From the IMG/VR virus record IMGVR_UViG_3300030419_006472, positions 50,209-114,208 of that record: DNA of 64,000 bases. One strand, written 5' to 3'. Origin of the DNA: a virus. The notes beneath the pieces are model-generated. The model searched no databases and had not been told where the DNA came from. It saw only the letters and a program-made list of their open reading frames with translations. The stretch's first letter is position 1, and each line of letters starts with the position of its first letter. Below are positions 457 to 10,657 of this stretch, one piece after another. The position numbers and the translations under genes are program-made.

Positions 457-1218
457 TTACACTTTTAAGGCCATATCCCATACTAGTAAATGTAGCCTAG
501 GGCTAAAATTAAAGTGATGCTTTTTAGCTAATTCTGCAACCATAGGAGCAACTTCAATATGCTCTTTTCTACTACCAGCGCAAGGCATTAACCAAACACG
601 ACCTGTAGGTATATCAAATTTATCAACATACTTTTTCATCACTTCATCTAAATCTGATTCTTTACTTATGACGAATTTAAAACCAGATCCTTGATTTGCA
701 TGCCATTCTAGTACATTAGGTTTATATCTCCTATTTTCTGGGTCACCATTATTACTAAGCTTAGGAGAAGTAGTAAATGTAGCACCAATTCTAACCCATT
801 CTTTATCTGGCATAATTGTAGCGTTGGTTTCAAAATCAATTCTAGGTACCCAACCCCATTCTACCTCCATATATGCTAAAAACCTAAGCAACGCAGGCTG
901 CTGTACTAAGGGCTCACCACCTGTAATCTTCCATATAGCTCCGTTATATAAATGCTTTTCAAAACCTTCCTGTTCTAAGTGTTGTAATAAATCAGCATTT
1001 GTAATTCTATTCTTAACGCTCCAAGATATATAACTATCACAACCATTGGGAGAATCTTCTGAAGCGAAACCTTGACATGTAAGGTTACACATAGATAATC
1101 GCATAAATACCGAAGGGTATCCTACAAACTCTCCTTCTCCTTCCACAGTATAAAATACTTTATCGTCAGATAATAGTATTGTCTTATCACTAAGATCGTC
1201 TTTATAAAGATTTGTCAT
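457..1218 (-). CDS. queE: 7-carboxy-7-deazaguanine synthase QueE (radical SAM)
   Basis: QueE converts 6-carboxy-tetrahydropterin to 7-carboxy-7-deazaguanine, the third step of preQ0 synthesis. The 253-aa protein has the family N-terminus (TVEGEGEFVGYP, then F-x-R-L) and the GGEPL motif of radical SAM enzymes. The cluster cysteines are spaced C-x3-C-x11-C (C44, C48, C60) rather than the canonical CxxxCxxC, which fits the atypical cluster loops known in some QueE proteins. Its start overlaps the end of the 49-aa gene upstream by 17 nt, and it appears to be the last gene of a queD - small gene - queE operon. Confidence in family is high; activity of the altered cluster loop is inferred. Confidence 0.9.
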   Translation of the reverse strand: MTNLYKDDLSDKTILLSDDKVFYTVEGEGEFVGYPSVFMRLSMCNLTCQGFASEDSPNGCDSYISWSVKNRITNADLLQHLEQEGFEKHLYNGAIWKITGGEPLVQQPALLRFLAYMEVEWGWVPRIDFETNATIMPDKEWVRIGATFTTSPKLSNNGDPENRRYKPNVLEWHANQGSGFKFVISKESDLDEVMKKYVDKFDIPTGRVWLMPCAGSRKEHIEVAPMVAELAKKHHFNFSPRLHLLVWDMALKV

Positions 1219-1353: not shown

Positions 1354-1833
1354 TTAATCTACTGTAGCTGAAAGTGCAGACCATACTGCAGTTGTATCTT
1401 CTACTTCATAAATAGCAGAATTATTTTCATGTTCGAAAACTTCTACTCTTTTACACCAACATCTATCATCAGTTAGTTCTTTTACATACTCATCAGCAGT
1501 TCGCCAGCAATATTCAGCAAACTTTTCAATACCAACACCATCCATAATTCTTAAATCTACAATATCATCGTCGTTTAACATCTTAAAGGCTCTTATTGCA
1601 GGGTCGTCGGCGGCAATTACAGTGGTGTGATCGAATTGATGTTGGAGTTTCTTTTTAAGATCTTTTAATCCACCGAAGTCAACAACCCAATTATTCTCAT
1701 CTAACTCTTTAGCTCCAAACCAAAATTTACCAACCAACCGATAACCGTGTACAAACCGGCAATGCGATGTAGCTTTAGGCTGTCTGAACGCACAACTACC
1801 TAATTCAATAATTTTAGTACTAGAAAAACTCAT
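1354..1833 (-). CDS. queD: 6-carboxy-5,6,7,8-tetrahydropterin synthase QueD
   Basis: QueD turns 7,8-dihydroneopterin triphosphate (from FolE) into 6-carboxy-tetrahydropterin. The 159-aa protein has the PTPS-fold landmarks: His24/Cys25 (SHC), H29-G-Y31 in place of the usual HGH, DFGGLK near residue 52, D68-H69 (FDHT), and a C-terminal VEVFEHENN segment with the substrate-binding Glu. The HGY variant with WVVDFGGLK is typical of a QueD subfamily seen in alphaproteobacteria and marine phages. The start is fixed by a near-consensus promoter ending 6 nt upstream. It is the first gene of the queD - 49 aa - queE operon. Confidence 0.9.
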   Translation of the reverse strand: MSFSSTKIIELGSCAFRQPKATSHCRFVHGYRLVGKFWFGAKELDENNWVVDFGGLKDLKKKLQHQFDHTTVIAADDPAIRAFKMLNDDDIVDLRIMDGVGIEKFAEYCWRTADEYVKELTDDRCWCKRVEVFEHENNSAIYEVEDTTAVWSALSATVD

Positions 1834-1839
1834 AAAATA

Positions 1840-1867
1840 ATTATATATTATTCTTCTTTTTTGTCAA
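1840..1867 (-). promoter_or_regulatory. sigma70-like early promoter of queD operon
   Basis: On the minus strand a perfect -35 TTGACA (1862-1867), a 16-nt spacer and a perfect -10 TATAAT (1840-1845) are followed by 6 nt and the queD ATG. Transcription should start at or next to the start codon, giving a leaderless mRNA. The -35 box lies inside the 3' end of the membrane-protein gene upstream. Confidence 0.85.
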
Positions 1868-2096
1868 GTTTTAATTCTATGGATTGTAAGACGTTATTAA
1901 AATTATCAACTACCCAACACACACCAGCACTGACAAACGGAAACAATATATAATCGTTTTTACTTACGAAATATACAATAACACCTGACCAGAAACCTAA
2001 ACATAAGCTACATTTAAATAACTCTCGTAAAAACGGTATTTTAGTAAGAATTTTTCTAGGAAAATTAAGTATTGTACCGTATTTGAGAATGAACAT
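1848..2096 (-). CDS. small inner-membrane protein, DUF1360-like
   Basis: This 82-aa protein has two hydrophobic segments (about residues 33-45 and 48-64) and a C-S-L-C-L-G-F-W-S-G motif near residue 29. That motif resembles the CxxCxGFWxG signature of DUF1360-type small membrane proteins found in phages and bacteria. Their function is unknown. The C-terminus is charged (KLDKKEE). The queD promoter overlaps its last codons. No clear promoter of its own was found. Confidence 0.6.
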   Translation of the reverse strand: MFILKYGTILNFPRKILTKIPFLRELFKCSLCLGFWSGVIVYFVSKNDYILFPFVSAGVCWVVDNFNNVLQSIELKLDKKEE

Positions 2097-2323: not shown

Positions 2324-2431
2324 TTACCAGAAAGGATATGTATTATCATCATCATCGTCTTTTTTAAGCTTTTGTAATATCCATTGCTTAATTTGAAGGT
2401 ATCTTAATTTTATCTTATAAAAAACTGTCAT
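2324..2431 (-). CDS. tiny protein with acidic tail (35 aa), coupled to SGNH gene
   Basis: The frame starts MTVFYKIKLRYLQIKQWILQ and continues with a KLKKDDDDDN stretch, 35 aa in all. Its ATG overlaps the TGA of the SGNH-like gene upstream (ATGA), the same coupling used between members of the array, which suggests translation. It has an amphipathic basic/hydrophobic helix and no known domain. Because of its size the call is tentative. Confidence 0.4.
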   Translation of the reverse strand: MTVFYKIKLRYLQIKQWILQKLKKDDDDDNTYPFW

Positions 2432-3204
2432 AAATGTTCCTTTATTTTATCTGCTATTAGCTTGGCCCCAAGTTGGTTTACATGTCGATGATCCTCAGTC
2501 AATGTTGGATTATGGGATTTAAACCAACTGGTGTGAAAATTATTCTCATTAATATAAACAATATTATTTATATCACAATATTCGGATAATGTTTCTTTAT
2601 AAAAATCTTTTGAAAATTCATGAATAAAAGGATGTATAGTTTCTTCGTAACGTAAAAATATTATTTTAATTTCAGGAAATTTATCACGAATAAGGTCAAC
2701 ATTATATTTTACAGCTCTTATCGCTTTTTCATAAAATAAATCACGACGAGACATAATATCATATATGTCTTGCATAGTAATTTTAGATTTTTTAGGCGAT
2801 AGATCGTTTCCAAACTTTAACATAGTCCATAAAAACTCTGATCCATATATGTCAGTCTTTTGGTCATGGCCAATCCGATCTGGGTGACGCAATCTCCCTT
2901 TTTTAATTTTTACATTATATTTTTTAGATAAATATTCTTTTATCTCTATAGGCGCTGAATAAAAATCATCTATTGAATAATTTTTACATAATGGTTGTCT
3001 TGCTGGAGACGGTACTTGCCAGATAAAATGAGTTAGTTTAAGATGGTATTTATTAGTTAAAAACTCTTTAACCCGTGTTACGTCGATGCCAGAACCACGT
3101 TCAGCAATACTGTGTACCTTCCCTGGTAAGTAACGCCAATACGCCTGCATCGCGCCAACCCCAAAGGAAATAGAAAATGAACAACCGTTATTTAAAATAA
3201 TCAT
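2428..3204 (-). CDS. SGNH-hydrolase-like protein, array copy 1
   Basis: This is the most promoter-distal of six tandem paralogues (258 aa). The N-terminal NGCSFS segment matches SGNH block I with the nucleophile Ser. The middle carries a QVPSPARQP block and a KIIFLRYEE strand. Near the C-terminus, EDHRHVN-x4-AKLIADKI matches block V with the catalytic Asp and His. SGNH enzymes are esterases or lipases, often acting on acylated glycans. The substrate is unknown. It overlaps copy 2 by 4 nt and the 35-aa gene downstream by ATGA. The middle third differs from the other copies while both ends are conserved. Confidence 0.65.
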   Translation of the reverse strand: MIILNNGCSFSISFGVGAMQAYWRYLPGKVHSIAERGSGIDVTRVKEFLTNKYHLKLTHFIWQVPSPARQPLCKNYSIDDFYSAPIEIKEYLSKKYNVKIKKGRLRHPDRIGHDQKTDIYGSEFLWTMLKFGNDLSPKKSKITMQDIYDIMSRRDLFYEKAIRAVKYNVDLIRDKFPEIKIIFLRYEETIHPFIHEFSKDFYKETLSEYCDINNIVYINENNFHTSWFKSHNPTLTEDHRHVNQLGAKLIADKIKEHL

Positions 3205-4133
3205 AAATACTCTTTTATTTTATTTGCTATTAGTTCTGCACCGGCGCGATTAGGGTGTCTTTTATCATCACATAATTTTTTATCTTTAAACCATTTTGTA
3301 TTAAAATTTTCTTCATAGATATATGTAACATTATTGTCTTTACAATACTCAGATAAAGTATTTTTAAACCAATCCTTTGCGTATTCATGAACTAAGGGTA
3401 TTTTAGTTTCTTCATACCGTAAAAATATAATTTTTACATCTGGCCATTTATCGCGAAGTATATTAACATTTTCATTTACACCGTTAAGTGCCTTTTTTAA
3501 ATATCTTTCACGGGTCTCGAGCCCGAAAATTTTATGTTCATGTCGTAGTTGATGCCATAAAAAATTATCTTGTAAGTATTTTGTCTTCTGAACTTCTTCC
3601 CACGAACCCTCCATATATTTTTCCCCACACCCAAACCTCTTAAACCGACGACCTAGGAGCCTAAGGACGTCTGTTAAGCGTTCGCTGTAACCTGTTGAGT
3701 GGTTAAGAGCTCGTTCTGTGTACTTAGGAGCATTCTCCGAAATTTCCCAAAGCTCATCTATTTGTAAGGTAGCTTTATAAAACTCTTCATCATCTTTTAA
3801 TTCTTCAAATATCGGCTGTCTAGTAGGATGAGGGATTTGATAAATATAATGAGTTAATTGTTTGTTTTTTTTACGCCAACGAGCATCTACCTCATCTAAA
3901 AACCTCTTAGTCCGTGTTACGTCAATACCGGATCCGTGTTTGGCAATATTGTGTATTTCTCCTGGTAAATAATCACAATATGATGTTATGTACCAATCAG
4001 TGTTGCGCCGGACTTTCGGTTTTTTAGGTGAAGAATGTTTATCTTTCCGTAGCAATTGTTGTCCTTTACCGTTTTTAGCATATTTAATTTTGCTTTTAGC
4101 CGAAAATGAACAACCGTTATTAAGAATAACCAT
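3201..4133 (-). CDS. SGNH-hydrolase-like protein, array copy 2 (longest)
   Basis: At 310 aa this copy has a lysine-rich insertion after NGCSFS (about residues 12-45) and an extended variable middle. The shared blocks are present: HNIAKHGSGIDVTR, YQIPHPTRQP, KIIFLRYEE and DKRHPN with a candidate Asp-His pair, then LIANKIKEYL. Of all copies it is closest to copy 1 (NNGCSFS, GSGIDVTR). A late-type AATAAATA lies 5 nt before its ATG, so copies 2 and 1 may form their own late transcript. Catalytic residues look intact; the substrate is unknown. Confidence 0.65.
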   Translation of the reverse strand: MVILNNGCSFSAKSKIKYAKNGKGQQLLRKDKHSSPKKPKVRRNTDWYITSYCDYLPGEIHNIAKHGSGIDVTRTKRFLDEVDARWRKKNKQLTHYIYQIPHPTRQPIFEELKDDEEFYKATLQIDELWEISENAPKYTERALNHSTGYSERLTDVLRLLGRRFKRFGCGEKYMEGSWEEVQKTKYLQDNFLWHQLRHEHKIFGLETRERYLKKALNGVNENVNILRDKWPDVKIIFLRYEETKIPLVHEYAKDWFKNTLSEYCKDNNVTYIYEENFNTKWFKDKKLCDDKRHPNRAGAELIANKIKEYL

Positions 4134-4138
4134 AGAAA

Positions 4139-4146
4139 TATTTATT
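4139..4146 (-). promoter_or_regulatory. late promoter octamer AATAAATA
   Basis: The minus-strand AATAAATA lies 5 nt before the ATG of SGNH copy 2 (4133) and overlaps the stop codon of copy 3. Confidence 0.55.
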
Positions 4147-4939
4147 ATAAGTTTTTCTTTATTCTATTTGCGATTAATTTCGAACCTTCAATATTAGGGT
4201 GTACTTTGTCAATGGTTAAATTATGACGGTAAAACCATAAAGTGTTAAATTGTTTTTCATATATATACGTTATATCGTTATCCTCGCAATAATTTGGTAG
4301 TAATTGTTTATAAAAATCTTTACAAAATTCAGCAATTAAAGGATTTCGACCTTCCTCATAACGTAAAAATATAATTTTTACATCAGGATGTTCTCGTCTG
4401 ACGATATTAACATTATTATTAACTTTACTTAAAGCTTTATTTAAAAATAAATGCCTATTATTGAATTCTTCTACATTGCCTCCCTTAAGTAACCGCCATA
4501 ATGTTCTATTTTTTTTACCTACAGACCATAGATTATCCTTGTGCTTTCCACAAAAGGGCCACGCATAAGGATCGTTTAATTGTTTTGGTTGTCTGGCGGG
4601 GCTCGGTACTTGATAGATAAAATGTGTTAAACGGATATTTTTATTTCGTGTAATAAACTTCGATATATCTTGACTTTGAATACCGCTAGCTGGTCTTCCT
4701 ATATTATATGTTGTCTCAGGGAGGTAATTAGTATAAGAGACATACGGGTTCAGTATAAACTCATTTAATTTAATAGTAATTTCATCTGCAAGCGCAGACG
4801 CTGGATGACCATTAGCATAATCTGCAGGTATAAAACTAGGACCTGGTACGGTACTATCATCTATTCCGTCAACAGTGATATCGCTAGTATGATTCCAACC
4901 AGCTGTAAACGAACAACCTGCACATAATATATTATACAC
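4145..4939 (-). CDS. SGNH-hydrolase-like protein, array copy 3
   Basis: A 264-aa member starting MYNILCAGCSFTAG (block I). It carries YNIGRPASGI, YQVPSPARQP, KIIFLRYEE and DKVHPNIEGSKLIANRI, so the Ser and the Asp-His pair are in place. It has a private segment after block I (about residues 15-65) ahead of the YLPE motif. It touches copy 4 by one base (stop and start share a nucleotide). It is a cytoplasmic protein by sequence, with no signal peptide. Confidence 0.65.
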   Translation of the reverse strand: MYNILCAGCSFTAGWNHTSDITVDGIDDSTVPGPSFIPADYANGHPASALADEITIKLNEFILNPYVSYTNYLPETTYNIGRPASGIQSQDISKFITRNKNIRLTHFIYQVPSPARQPKQLNDPYAWPFCGKHKDNLWSVGKKNRTLWRLLKGGNVEEFNNRHLFLNKALSKVNNNVNIVRREHPDVKIIFLRYEEGRNPLIAEFCKDFYKQLLPNYCEDNDITYIYEKQFNTLWFYRHNLTIDKVHPNIEGSKLIANRIKKNL

Positions 4940-5736
4940 TATAAATACTCTTTTATTTTATCTGCTATCAGCTTGGCTCCTGCTTTATTGGGATGGATTC
5001 CAAGTTTGTGTTTTTTAAACCATCTTGTATTAAAATTCTCTTCATAGATATATGAAAAATTATTTTTTTCACAATAGTTAGCTAGTGTGTTTTTATAAAA
5101 ATTTTTAGTAAATTCATATTGTAAGGGCTTTCTCGTATCCTCGTACCGTAAAAATATTATTTTAGCATTAGGGTGATTTTCTCGAATTAAATTAACATTA
5201 ATGTTAACTACATCTATAGCTTTTTTATGATATTCCTCTATTTTATCAAAAACCTGTAAATTAGGTTTTCTTAATTCATTATATATTGTTTTTTCAAAAT
5301 CATTATCAGGTGTACGCCGCGTTCCCTCATTAATACTTACTTCTTCCAATTTACCATCATAATGTACGTAAGTATGACCGTTTATAAATGCGTATTTATC
5401 ACGACCTCCAATTCTAAGTCTAAAATGATCTTCATTGTAATTATTCAAATCTACGGGTTGGCGAGTAGGACTAGGTACTTGATAAATAACGTGTGTCAAT
5501 TTTACGTCTCTATTTTGATCAAAAAACAGTCTAAAATATCTGGGAGAAATTCCAAGTCCCCATTTACCAATATTATATGTTTTACCAGGTAAATAATTGG
5601 CATATGGATACCAGCGAGGATTTAATGGGTCATCGTCCACCAGCTCAACGGAAGTCTTACGATCAACGTATGTTACTTCGCGTTTATAATTACCGTGAGT
5701 AAAAGAACAGCCAGCACATAATATATTATACATCAT
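4939..5736 (-). CDS. SGNH-hydrolase-like protein, array copy 4 (catalytic Asp missing)
   Basis: This 265-aa copy keeps CAGCSFTHG, YLPGKTYNIG, YQVPSPTRQP and KIIFLRYED. In block V the Asp of the D-x-x-H pair is replaced: the segment reads KLGIHPNKAG, so His remains but Asp is gone. It groups with copy 6, which has the same loss and shares a KIEEYHKKA segment. It may be catalytically weakened or repurposed for binding. It overlaps copy 5 by 4 nt. Confidence 0.6.
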   Translation of the reverse strand: MMYNILCAGCSFTHGNYKREVTYVDRKTSVELVDDDPLNPRWYPYANYLPGKTYNIGKWGLGISPRYFRLFFDQNRDVKLTHVIYQVPSPTRQPVDLNNYNEDHFRLRIGGRDKYAFINGHTYVHYDGKLEEVSINEGTRRTPDNDFEKTIYNELRKPNLQVFDKIEEYHKKAIDVVNINVNLIRENHPNAKIIFLRYEDTRKPLQYEFTKNFYKNTLANYCEKNNFSYIYEENFNTRWFKKHKLGIHPNKAGAKLIADKIKEYL

Positions 5737-6452
5737 ATATATATTTTTATTTTATCTGCAATTATCTTAACTCCCTCACCGTCAGGATGTGTTTGGTCAG
5801 TCGTCATTCCATTTTTGTTAAACCATTTTGAATTAAAATCTTCTTCATATATATACGTAATATCGTTTTTCATGCAATATTCACTTAAATTATTTTTATA
5901 CCAATCTTTACAAAATGCACTGAGTAATGGAATAGTAGTTATTTCATAACGGAGAAATATAATTTTAATCCCTGGGTAGTTTTCACGTATAAACTTAACG
6001 TTAATATCTACGTTGTTCATAGCTTTATCTAAATATTTTTCATGATTAGTAAAAATCTCCGTAATATGTTTGCTTCTTAAAATTTTATTTTCTATTAATA
6101 AATTCCATATATTTTTTTTATTTAAAATTGAATTTTTATAACCGTGGATTATTTTTCTTTCGTCCTCTACAGCTTCTCTAATATGAAAACACTCCGGAGC
6201 GTTTTCGTTTATGTCTAAAGGCTGACGCGCAGGAGATGGTACTTGATAAATAAAATGTGTTAAATCTATATCTTTATTTTCTTGAACGAATTTCTCAATT
6301 AAATGCTTTGTAATACCTGCGCCAGCTTCTCCGATGTTATATACAAACTCCGGTAAATGATTAGCATATGAATAACCTCCGAAAGTATTACCTGTAGGGA
6401 GCCTTTCGCATTTTGTAAACGAACAACCGGCGCATAATATATTATACATCAT
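5733..6452 (-). CDS. SGNH-hydrolase-like protein, array copy 5
   Basis: The shortest member, 239 aa, starts MMYNILCAGCSFTKC like copy 4 and keeps YNIGEAGAGI, YQVPSPARQP, KIIFLRYE and DQTHPDGEG with an intact Asp-His pair. The variable middle differs from its neighbours. It overlaps copies 4 and 6 by 4 nt each, which indicates one polycistronic unit. Function is inferred only from the SGNH blocks. Confidence 0.65.
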   Translation of the reverse strand: MMYNILCAGCSFTKCERLPTGNTFGGYSYANHLPEFVYNIGEAGAGITKHLIEKFVQENKDIDLTHFIYQVPSPARQPLDINENAPECFHIREAVEDERKIIHGYKNSILNKKNIWNLLIENKILRSKHITEIFTNHEKYLDKAMNNVDINVKFIRENYPGIKIIFLRYEITTIPLLSAFCKDWYKNNLSEYCMKNDITYIYEEDFNSKWFNKNGMTTDQTHPDGEGVKIIADKIKIYI

Positions 6453-7219
6453 AAATTTTCCTCTATCTTATCTGCTATTAGCCTAGCTCCTGCTCTATTA
6501 GGGTGTGAGCCATAGTTATTTCGCTTAAACCACTTTGTACCGAAATTTTTTTCATTAATATACGGTATATCGTTTTTCTCACAATAATTAGTTAGTACTT
6601 TTTTATAAAAATTCCTGCTAAATTCATATATTAACGGTTTTATTGTATGTTCAAATTTTAAAAATATTATCTTAGCATTAGGATAAGTTTCTCGAATTAA
6701 ATCAACACTTTTGTTAACCATGTATAAGGCTTTTTTATGATATTCCTCTATTTTATCAAAACCTTGCAAACTCGAGTTAAAATGATTTTTAGAAACCGCT
6801 AACTGCATCCATAATGATTTTATTCCAAAGCTTGCACCTAAGGCTCTAAAATGATTTTCATTATAATCACTTAAATCTACGGGTTGACGAGTCGGACAAG
6901 GTACTTGATAAATAAAATGTGTTAAATTTATATCTGGTTTTACTTTTATAAACTTTTTGAGATACTTAGGAGAAATACCAAAACCACGTTTTCCAATGTT
7001 AAATACATGACCTGGTAAATAACTTGCATACGGAAATTCTTCTGTACCTTTATGACAGTGTGTAAACGAGCAACCACTACATAATATGCAATAATTTTTA
7101 TCAGAAGGATTTATGGTCTCTAAACACAATGGAGATTTTTCGCAAAATGTTGTATGTCCTATATATTCGTGATTTCTATATATTTTCTTTGTGCTCAGAT
7201 CCGATCTCTCAACAACCAT
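6449..7219 (-). CDS. SGNH-hydrolase-like protein, array copy 6 (promoter-proximal)
   Basis: The first gene of the array is 256 aa and has about 40 extra N-terminal residues before CSGCSFTHC. It keeps YLPGHVFNIGKRGFGI, YQVPCPTRQP and KIIFLKFEH. Its block V reads NNYGSHPNRAG, so the catalytic Asp is missing as in copy 4. It is transcribed from a late-type octamer 5 nt upstream, back to back with the early folE promoter. Confidence 0.6.
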   Translation of the reverse strand: MVVERSDLSTKKIYRNHEYIGHTTFCEKSPLCLETINPSDKNYCILCSGCSFTHCHKGTEEFPYASYLPGHVFNIGKRGFGISPKYLKKFIKVKPDINLTHFIYQVPCPTRQPVDLSDYNENHFRALGASFGIKSLWMQLAVSKNHFNSSLQGFDKIEEYHKKALYMVNKSVDLIRETYPNAKIIFLKFEHTIKPLIYEFSRNFYKKVLTNYCEKNDIPYINEKNFGTKWFKRNNYGSHPNRAGARLIADKIEENL

Positions 7220-7224
7220 AGAAG

Positions 7225-7232
7225 TATTTAAT
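7225..7232 (-). promoter_or_regulatory. late promoter octamer ATTAAATA for SGNH array
   Basis: The minus-strand ATTAAATA lies 5 nt before the ATG at 7219, next to the divergent early folE promoter. Confidence 0.5.
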
Positions 7233-7235
7233 GAG

Positions 7236-7263
7236 TTGATTTATAATTCAAATATGTTATAAT
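7236..7263 (+). promoter_or_regulatory. sigma70-like early promoter of folE
   Basis: TTGATT (7236-7241), a 16-nt spacer and a perfect TATAAT (7258-7263) precede the ATG at 7271 by 7 nt. The upstream in-frame ATG at 7262 overlaps the -10 box and so cannot be the start; the mRNA is probably leaderless. Confidence 0.8.
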
Positions 7264-7270
7264 GATTCAT

Positions 7271-7909
7271 ATGAATGAGGATTTACTTCGATACGCTAAC
7301 GGTAATAAACCGCGAACACAAGAAGAGAGAGAAGCGATAATTGATAAAGCTGCTGCAGCGTATGAAAAATATATGGATGCATTAGGCTTTGATTGGAGAA
7401 ATGATCCTAATAGCGCAGACACTCCAAGACGGGTAGCTAAGGCATTTGTTAATGATCTAGCAGAAGGATGTTATAGTAATTCACCGAAAATTACAGCATT
7501 TGATAATGTTGATAAGTACGATGGTTTAGTATTTCAAGGTAATATTAAAGTTAATTCTTTTTGCTCACATCATCACTTACCGTTTATTGGTCAAGCTCAT
7601 GTATCTTATATACCTGGAAAAGACGGTAAGGTAATCGGTTTAAGTAAAATTAATCGTATTGTTGAATGGTTTTCAAGACGACCACAAGTACAAGAAAACT
7701 TAACTATGCAAATTCATAATTATATGAATGAAGTATGTAAGGGAAATAAAGGTATTGCAGTTCTAGTATCAGCTAATCATACATGCGCCGGTCTTAGAGG
7801 TGTTAAGCATGATAGTATTATGAAAACTGCTAGAATGTCAGGAGCGTTTTTAGATAAAACAGATTTAACTCGTCAAGAGTTTTATGACTTTGTCAGAGAT
7901 TTAAAATAA
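7271..7909 (+). CDS. folE: GTP cyclohydrolase I, FolE
   Basis: FolE opens the purine ring of GTP to give dihydroneopterin triphosphate, the entry substrate for preQ0 (and folate) synthesis. The 212-aa protein shows zinc ligands in NSFCSHHHLP (Cys98, His101) and NHTCAG (Cys172), the GLSKINRIVEWFSRRPQVQE signature, and normal length for a type I enzyme. I chose the ATG at 7271 because an in-frame ATG nine bases earlier lies in the promoter. It stands alone between minus-strand genes, with a hairpin terminator just past its stop. Together with queD, queE and queC it completes the preQ0 pathway. Confidence 0.95.
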   Translation: MNEDLLRYANGNKPRTQEEREAIIDKAAAAYEKYMDALGFDWRNDPNSADTPRRVAKAFVNDLAEGCYSNSPKITAFDNVDKYDGLVFQGNIKVNSFCSHHHLPFIGQAHVSYIPGKDGKVIGLSKINRIVEWFSRRPQVQENLTMQIHNYMNEVCKGNKGIAVLVSANHTCAGLRGVKHDSIMKTARMSGAFLDKTDLTRQEFYDFVRDLK

Positions 7910-9076
7910 TTACTGAAGAGAATCAAAAACTTGTTTAACTTCCTCAGGACTGACGTGCTCCGGTATGTCAGTCCTTATTTTTTCAAAATCGTCAAAGTTA
8001 TCTCTAATATTACTAGCACTATAAGGACGACCAGATGCATTTGTACTAACATTAACAGCAGTCTGTTCCGGGTCGAGGATATTTAAACCTAATCCTTCTT
8101 TCTCGGCCCATGGACGCGCATATGACCAGCGCTTCCAATCATTATCTTTTGTACTAGCTCCTAAAACTACCGTTGTTCCGGCATCTAATGTCTTAAGAGA
8201 TTCATACGCTGCCGTAACTGGGGACGGATATTCAGAAATACTTACTGTTACATTATTAAGAGGTTCAACGTATAGTTCAAAAATTTGTGCTGCAGCAGAT
8301 GGAGTAATTACTTTACCGTCTTTAGTTCTTCTCTCACTCTTAGCAGACGGTGCAGAAATTAAAACATGTACATGACCATCAGGATAGGCTCGGCTATAAT
8401 GTTCGACCATTTCATAATGACCTTTATGAGGTGGTTTAAAGCTACCAGGAACAAGAACAACTACTTTATCGTTTTTTTTTAATAGATCCTCAAGGACCAT
8501 GTCTGCTTTATTAACAAAACTTTCAGTATATCCTTGATCGACTAGTATCTTGTGTACAATTTTAGCTACCTTTTTAGCAGTTTCTGGTTCAGCATCTTTA
8601 TTAATAAGTTCTCTATCAGCGTCTGATAGTAATACATCATCTAAGTCAATATGTAATGCTTTACGAGCAAGATTTACTAAAAATGTTTCTCCTTCTGTCG
8701 TTAACGGTTCAGCTGGCTCTTGAACAGGATCCGGTAACGGTGGAACTCCAACTCCAGGAGGCGGAATAGCTGGTTCAAATTCACCACCAACAGGTGGTCC
8801 TTGTCTAGGAACAAATTCATCTCCTGGAGCCTCGATGAGCATTGAGTTAATTACTTCTGTTGAAGAATTTAAGGCCTGTATATCCTGTTGAACCTTGGTT
8901 TGGAGCTTTTTAGTTCTTTCATCATCATCTTTTAATGCTTGCTTTTCATCATCAGTAAGATCATTAGGTGTCTCCTTCTGCTTTTTTCTTAGGTTAGCGA
9001 GGGTTTGAGTCTCAGTAGAGTGTGTATCATCATGACCTGTTGTCAATTCAGCGATTTTTTTAAGAAACTTACTCAT
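7910..9076 (-). CDS. late nucleotidyltransferase-domain protein (NMNAT/cytidylyltransferase-like)
   Basis: The C-terminal half of this 388-aa protein is a HxGH-type nucleotidyltransferase: LVPGSFKPPHKGHYEM near residue 205 holds the ATP-binding motif, and YSASNIRDNF near residue 355 matches the ISSTxIR motif. The N-terminal 190 residues are charged and coiled-coil-like, then proline-rich (about 95-130), unlike free-standing NMN adenylyltransferases. A perfect TATAAATA 6 nt upstream marks it as a late gene, so it may be a virion or head-packaged enzyme. The real substrate (NMN, CTP-linked or other) cannot be assigned. Its stop abuts the folE stop. Confidence 0.8.
   Translation of the reverse strand: MSKFLKKIAELTTGHDDTHSTETQTLANLRKKQKETPNDLTDDEKQALKDDDERTKKLQTKVQQDIQALNSSTEVINSMLIEAPGDEFVPRQGPPVGGEFEPAIPPPGVGVPPLPDPVQEPAEPLTTEGETFLVNLARKALHIDLDDVLLSDADRELINKDAEPETAKKVAKIVHKILVDQGYTESFVNKADMVLEDLLKKNDKVVVLVPGSFKPPHKGHYEMVEHYSRAYPDGHVHVLISAPSAKSERRTKDGKVITPSAAAQIFELYVEPLNNVTVSISEYPSPVTAAYESLKTLDAGTTVVLGASTKDNDWKRWSYARPWAEKEGLGLNILDPEQTAVNVSTNASGRPYSASNIRDNFDDFEKIRTDIPEHVSPEEVKQVFDSLQ
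7946..7983 (+). terminator. Rho-independent terminator of folE, inside convergent gene
   Basis: AGGACTGAC (7946-7954) pairs perfectly with GTCAGTCCT (7967-7975) across a 12-nt loop, followed by TATTTTTT. It lies 37 nt past the folE stop, within the coding 3' end of the convergent nucleotidyltransferase gene. Confidence 0.85.
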
Positions 9077-10088: not shown

Positions 10089-10123
10089 ATATAGTTACTT
10101 ATCAATTAGCTAGATTTTGCAAG

Positions 10124-10657
10124 TTAAATTGTAAAATTTTTAATAATACCATGATATTCGAATGTACTATTATCATCAATTACATTTTCGTCATTATACA
10201 ATTTGTTTAAATTTAAAGTGTTAATAGGAATAGATAAAACAACAATTTGTTTTAACCAAGAATCTGGAACTATATCGCTTGTTTCAGCATAACTATAAGC
10301 AACATCAGGGTCTTTAGCTAAATAAACCACCCCAGGCTTACTATCTTCCCATTTCGCTTGAACTCTAGACCCTCCTAAACCGTTTTTTTGTATACTCTTT
10401 AATAAAGGTTTATACGTTGCGTGATACAATATATCATTACTTTCGTTTAGTTTTTTTTTACGCTTCTTTTTTGCTTTACCTTTACGTGTAATAGTATCAC
10501 CTAATATCTTAGGCATTCTTGCATCACCAGGGGCATATGAATCTGCAGTAGTAAAATCTCCTGCGCCTTGCGCTCCCGTCGGACCTATATTAGCAGACGC
10601 AACGGTATTATCAGTTAGATATTGTGTAACTGCTTGATCGAATAACTTAAGAGGCAT
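10124..10657 (-). CDS. late ADP-ribosyltransferase-fold protein, possibly head-packaged
   Basis: The C-terminal part of this 177-aa protein (from about residue 75) has features of ART-fold enzymes: DILYHATYKPLLKSIQKNG (first-strand His), GVVYLAKDPDVAYSYAE (Tyr/Ala helix) and a Glu in STFEYHG near the end. T4 packages ARTs (Alt) in the head and injects them. Here the first 75 residues are low-complexity, with a GPTGAQGAGDF segment and a KGKAKKKRKKK stretch, and the gene has a late promoter, which fits a packaged effector with a targeting tail. Target unknown; a KptA/Tpt1-like phosphotransferase is the alternative. Confidence 0.55.
   Translation of the reverse strand: MPLKLFDQAVTQYLTDNTVASANIGPTGAQGAGDFTTADSYAPGDARMPKILGDTITRKGKAKKKRKKKLNESNDILYHATYKPLLKSIQKNGLGGSRVQAKWEDSKPGVVYLAKDPDVAYSYAETSDIVPDSWLKQIVVLSIPINTLNLNKLYNDENVIDDNSTFEYHGIIKNFTI

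Follow-up and report, generated by a model that had tools for sequence, protein, structure and literature searches.

The 64,000-nucleotide stretch of DNA analysed here (the window; bases 50209-114208 of the 114,716-base virus record IMGVR_UViG_3300030419_006472) comes from a marine T4-like phage and carries a head-to-tail array of six genes encoding proteins of one SGNH-fold family. The array is a gain/loss island of ancient, separately kept gene types. In one closely matched pair of phages it changes jointly with genes that build sugars, which suggests that its products decorate a phage-made surface sugar. We give roughly an even chance to the reading that they are cytoplasmic O-acyl esterases or transferases tailoring a surface glycan that the phage itself encodes.

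The genes at 2428-7219 are six complete minus-strand open reading frames, all of the same family (Table 1). Their pairwise identities of 34-48% in all-against-all BLASTP (E values from 1e-42 to 1e-78) are far above chance and bear out the single array of tandem paralogues proposed in a first-pass annotation of the sequence. Adjacent copies overlap by 4, 1, 4 and 4 nucleotides, within the 1-4 nucleotides given there, and copies 2 and 3 are separated by 11 nucleotides instead of 12. Four conserved blocks, GCSF[ST], [YW]Q[VI]P-x-P-[TA]RQP, KIIFL[RK][YF]E and H[PV][ND]-x3-G, occur in all six copies; the YQ first assigned to the second block is WQ in copy 1. The strong variability noted for the middles was likewise evident, with paralogue nucleotide identity of 41% there versus 60-67% elsewhere. 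Neither a signal peptide nor a membrane helix was detected in the six copies by hydropathy (maximum 19-residue hydropathy 1.29).

An AlphaFold model of copy 5 was of high quality (predicted local distance difference test score 90.5, predicted template modelling score 0.89). The best 50 PDB matches listed for it are all SGNH/GDSL enzymes, with EstL5 at the top (E 5e-7), and include many sugar O-acetylesterases acting on rhamnogalacturonan, xylan or sialate. An SGNH-like fold had been suspected from the sequence, with structure comparison as the proposed check, and copy 5 indeed has it; the model supports assigning all six copies to an SGNH-fold family. Consistent with this, the blocks follow the expected SGNH order in an alignment of 33 family members. 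The Gly-Cys-Ser of block I is invariant (33/33) and located after strand 1, Gly46 of block II is nearly invariant and follows the strand formed by residues 36-39, and the His of block V is invariant and precedes the last helix. The family thus shares fold, block order, block I Ser, block II Gly and block V His with the SGNH/GDSL superfamily (EstL5, 8ik1; GDSL esterase, 7e16; rhamnogalacturonan acetylesterase, 1deo). In contrast to that superfamily, it has Cys in place of the Asp of GDS, and the Asn of block III (GxND) is missing family-wide, with [YW]Q-x-P-x3-[RK] and an invariant Gln70 found instead. In addition, the block V Asp, kept in copies 1, 2, 3 and 5, is absent from copies 4 and 6 and their clade (12/33 members).

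A His or Asp residue directly follows GCSFT in every one of the 12 Asp-less members and in none of the 21 others. Because the Asp-less members form one clade, the change reflects one evolutionary event, possibly two, and not many; judged from its residues, this GCSFT[H/D] clade may have a rearranged SGNH active site. Given the missing block III Asn and the missing block V Asp in the copy 4 and copy 6 types, some of the proteins might lack activity or serve in binding. An account in which some or all of them are SGNH-like carbohydrate binders with no catalytic role, the Asp-less copies being inactive adaptors, takes these absences as its basis. We consider it quite improbable, since known SGNH enzymes include some CE2 enzymes that do without the block V Asp and the SASA family, which has no block III Asn (PMC9487903), and the Asp-less orthologues are under purifying selection, with a ratio of nonsynonymous to synonymous substitution rates (dN/dS) of ~0.2. 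With the block III Asn missing and such exceptions known, we describe the family as SGNH-fold and not as canonical SGNH hydrolases. The initial designation as hydrolases therefore stands for the fold, but activity should not be assumed for each copy, as two of the six lack the usual catalytic Asp.

Unlike members of the superfamily, the array family sequences score under every Pfam cut-off. Pfam and NCBIfam gave no match above cut-off, the best being 18.0 bits for Lipase_GDSL/Lipase_GDSL_2 against a gathering cut-off of 23.6; copy 3 matched Lipase_GDSL with an E value of 0.0034, also below cut-off. Searches of PHROGs returned weak partial matches only, including tail-fibre matches to the C-terminal part. 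No relative was found among INPHARED phages by tblastn of three members, none of 201 pattern matches in GTDB genome contigs was confirmed as a relative, and the PDB searched by sequence yielded only 4c1b (E 1.9, an SGNH-like D..HP..AG match). As SASA (NanS-type) enzymes are defined (PMC9487903), the family falls outside them, its block I GCSF not bearing Gln and its block III being [YW]Q-x-P and not HQGE. All relatives came from IMG/VR contigs, at ~22 loci.

The array is an accessory island. Three loci, L029, L030 and L031, are collinear with the window in blastn, with 88-96% nucleotide identity on both flanks of the island (95-96% for L029), and approximately positions 2327-7223 of the window are missing from L031. 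At the same site, relatives carry 10 copies (L003 and L002), 8 (L001), 2 (L012, L014 and L008, and also L009) or 1 (L013; L007), and in L029, L030, L031, L043, L044, L061 and L069 the small left-hand gene directly adjoins folE with zero copies. In the two-copy array of L009 (543-2186), the copies lie in opposite orientations.

In a maximum-likelihood tree, the window copies cluster with orthologues from other phages; those of copy 6, for example, are L001_1, L003_3 and L007_1. Read from the folE side, the types are ordered F-E-D-C-B-A in the window, F-D'-G-E-D-D''-C-B in L001 and H-A-F-D'-G-E-D-D''-C-B in L003, an order that is collinear save for A. Orthologue dN/dS between the window and L001/L003 is 0.18-0.25, compared with 0.07-0.13 for neighbouring genes. 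Positive selection was looked for and not seen, dN/dS being ~0.2 for the window versus L001/L003 and 0.3-0.6 for L001 versus L003. The presence of orthologues in other phages and the low dN/dS indicate that the copies are old, maintained and under purifying selection. An earlier suggestion of diversification against variable targets, taken as an ongoing rapid process, finds no support in such old types.

One product of recombination within the array could be identified. L007 is ~99% identical to L008/L011 but lacks the second gene; it tracks the end of gene 1 as far as a 27-nucleotide sequence, GCAGATAAAATAAAAGAGTATTTATGA, common to both gene ends, beyond which it carries the sequence found after gene 2. 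The position of this junction at the repeat marks a product of recombination at gene ends, whichever the direction of change. Between its array gene and the small gene, L007 also has ~890 nucleotides (3242-4133) without a family member. In L001 and L003, the proportion of synonymous-site differences (pS) between paralogues is 0.47-0.49 over the last 20 codons versus 0.59-0.62 in the middles, so that gene ends are more alike than middles, as expected under gene-end exchange. Over the same codons, pS is 0.62 between window and L001/L003 orthologues, and gene-end similarity was not seen among the window's own copies (pS 0.71).

The link to glycans comes from comparison of larger records. At bases 23-49 kb, the window's record has a ~25-kb cluster that encodes glycosyltransferases, including GT2 homologues, together with two cytidine monophosphate (CMP)-sugar synthetase homologues and a HAD/NTP-transferase fusion. 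It also encodes a sulfotransferase-like protein, radical SAM proteins and an HpcH-type aldolase. Over its 68 kb, G001 (the record to which L029 belongs) is collinear with the window's record at 96-98% nucleotide identity, with only two large differences: the array is present in one and absent from the other, and a glycosyltransferase segment of 7.2 kb in the window's record is replaced by an 11.8-kb alternative in G001. Replacement of both loci as a single block was rejected because the 16.0 kb separating them match the array-less twin at 97.8% identity. Among its glycosyltransferase genes, the alternative segment (found in G001, G002 and L116) has a single family member. G003, which has an 8-copy array, carries the window's glycosyltransferase allele (61-93% amino acid identity); its backbone is no nearer to the window than to G001, and its UvsW is only 85% identical to the window's. 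A third allele is common to G005 and G010, close relatives of each other that both have two types, I and J, while G007 has yet another allele and zero family members. Three same-sample pairs (L143/L003, L145/L011 and L116/L043) fit the coupling and were not counted as proof, and a search for more records with an allele-Y gene returned only L116. The early idea of a connection with glycosylated or acylated polymers thus gains support from genome comparison as regards glycans, without the rapid diversification attached to it.

The variable segment includes a repeated 'GQPRF' family (PHROG 13607) with a GT-A fold by Foldseek (best E 1.6e-6, template modelling score ~0.4-0.5). Copies of this multi-copy 'GQPRF/GEPR' family are found at L026:10037-11326, L026:15844-16788 and L027:1630-2487, with relatives in L108/L109/L112/L113/L116/L131/L132, and the segment alleles differ between near-identical phages.

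Presence or absence of the whole unit in near-identical phages, together with single-gene gain and loss, also resembles an arms-race locus. The types could then be accessory counter-defence or host-takeover enzymes with no glycan role, removing ester-linked groups from different host defence signals or modified nucleic acids, with repertoires that track defences. Accessory-looking neighbours, the NMNAT-like and ADP-ribosyltransferase-like proteins (Table 1), would suit such a role. Under it one would expect neither that the array and the glycosyltransferase segment change together nor that the alternative segment contains a family member, and we regard it as unlikely.

In the glycan-tailoring reading that we favour, the copies would strip O-acyl groups from sugars or transfer such groups; the sugars, made by the phage's own cluster, could be present as sugar nucleotides, as lipid-linked units or in finished units. 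Each copy set would specify a particular decoration of the glycan displayed by the infected host or the virion, and would change along with the glycosyltransferase allele, single genes being gained or lost through recombination at conserved gene ends. The purpose might be a surface altered against superinfection or a tuned receptor. A more far-reaching form, which we find possible but doubtful, is a two-locus serotype in which a swappable glycosyltransferase segment would build the backbone glycan and a matching copy-variable SGNH-fold array would write its acyl pattern. Marine phages would then exchange whole surface-decoration programmes with the rest of the genome near-identical, the Asp-less clade representing a rearranged active site.

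Several known systems resemble parts of this scheme. Acyltransferases of seroconverting phages change the acylation of a host surface sugar, the O-antigen; they are single-copy membrane enzymes of temperate phages, whereas the array encodes soluble SGNH-fold proteins in multiple copies. Sialate O-acetylesterases and CMP-sugar O-acetyltransferases act on CMP-sugars or the free sugars during glycan biosynthesis through chemistry of the SGNH or esterase type; they include NanS and, for CMP-sugars, the SGNH-like CASD1 and the esterase domain of NeuA (PMC8319020). The phage has CMP-sugar synthetase homologues, but the array proteins are not fused to a cytidylyltransferase and lack the SASA block I Gln and block III HQGE; the likeness in substrate is our proposal. 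Pelagimyophages, likewise T4-like marine phages, possess within a host recognition cluster a large, hypervariable glycosyltransferase island proposed to alter the host O-chain and thereby prevent coinfection (PMC7029224). SGNH proteins are not mentioned in that study, and the phage described here differs in having a second locus, apart from the glycosyltransferases, that changes with their allele.

A number of points weigh against glycan tailoring. Besides the altered blocks III and V, the coupling depends on a single clear joint change and on shared ancestry, and the records that span both loci number fewer than 10. Family members are absent from several contigs that carry relatives of one allele-X gene; these contigs are also without folE and could neither support nor contradict the coupling. 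No acyl donor or acyltransferase was identified, and the array sits in a 7-deazaguanine neighbourhood, outside the glycan cluster. No second assembly of the exact array was found, and a chimeric metagenomic contig is possible in principle; such an artefact is unlikely because similar arrays recur in several independent contigs.

The site occupied by the array is flanked by folE and by the small gene that precedes queD-queE. In array-bearing relatives, too, the array lies between folE and queD-queE, as would fit a function in the 7-deazaguanine pathway (folE, queD, queE), such as further modification of deazapurines in phage DNA. Yet the closest array-less phages have intact pathway genes at 82-99% identity, the queD-like gene has its own promoter-like site (1867-1840, 12/12 consensus match), and one family member is found far off, in the glycan cluster. 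Moreover, a search of the window's record and of G002, G003 and G005 detected no enzyme of the TGT family, though folE, queD-like and queE-like genes are present. We therefore hold a pathway function to be distinctly unlikely.

Among viral structure matches, many of the SGNH domains form part of large tail or structural proteins, and these, with the weak PHROG tail-fibre matches, would be in keeping with virion-borne esterases or a multi-subunit tail structure attacking acylated host polymers at entry. However, the array proteins are free-standing (239-310 residues), have no trimerisation or attachment domains or virion-domain fusion, and are encoded in a DNA-metabolism region with no structural genes nearby; the structural genes are unchanged whether the array is present or absent. 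A virion role is very improbable on these grounds, and the multi-subunit particle suggested in the first-pass annotation was not supported.

Elsewhere the window encodes a T4-type large terminase, a tail sheath, a UvsX-like recombinase, an SbcCD-like nuclease and a DNA polymerase, and contains a weak UvsY match. The terminase is closest to cyanophage terminases at 36-37% identity and megablast of 24 kb against INPHARED gave no match, indicating an uncultured T4-like phage. About 330 nucleotides of the ADP-ribosyltransferase-like gene (10123-10450) are missing from L030 and L031.

Table 1. Array genes and neighbouring features of the window.
Feature	Position	Strand	Description
Accessory island	2335-7228		Missing from near-identical L029, with 4 nucleotides in its place; blastn jump 2334 to 7229
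Copy 1, type A	2428-3204	-	258 residues; GCSFSI, TEDHRHVN; orthologue L003_2 at opposite end of L003 array
Copy 2, type B	3201-4133	-	310 residues, longest middle; GCSFSA, CDDKRHPN
Copy 3, type C	4145-4939	-	264 residues, GTG start; GCSFTA, TIDKVHPN
Copy 4, type D	4939-5736	-	265 residues; GCSFTH, LGIHPN (without Asp)
Copy 5, type E	5733-6452	-	239 residues; GCSFTK, TTDQTHPD (Asp and His kept); used for structure prediction
Copy 6, type F	6449-7219	-	256 residues, 40-residue N-terminal extension; block I GCSFTH, block V YGSHPN (no Asp)
queE-like gene	457-1218	-	Radical SAM protein (7-deazaguanine pathway), candidate QueE from sequence and neighbours; Fer4_12 E 0.003, below cut-off
queD-like gene	1354-1833	-	6-pyruvoyl-tetrahydropterin synthase family; PF01242 E 1e-17
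Small conserved gene	1848-2096	-	82 residues; left-hand neighbour in most relatives; 75-99% identical in close relatives
folE	7262-7909	+	GTP cyclohydrolase I; Pfam PF01227 E 9e-47; divergent, fixed right-hand neighbour by synteny
NMNAT-like protein	7910-9076	-	Adjoins folE; C-terminal nucleotidyltransferase domain (CTP_transf_like, just under cut-off); conserved but variable in relatives
ADP-ribosyltransferase-like protein	10124-10657	-	Short; weak Exotox-A_cataly match, below cut-off

The array adds to the SGNH superfamily an SGNH-fold family that lies outside Pfam and NCBIfam and has an unusual active site, and it shows a phage keeping and shuffling old paralogues through recombination at conserved gene ends. 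The joint change in a near-identical pair provides concrete genotypes to compare and points to glycan tailoring, beyond synthesis; it thereby bears on the reason for the tens of kilobases of glycan genes found in large marine phages.

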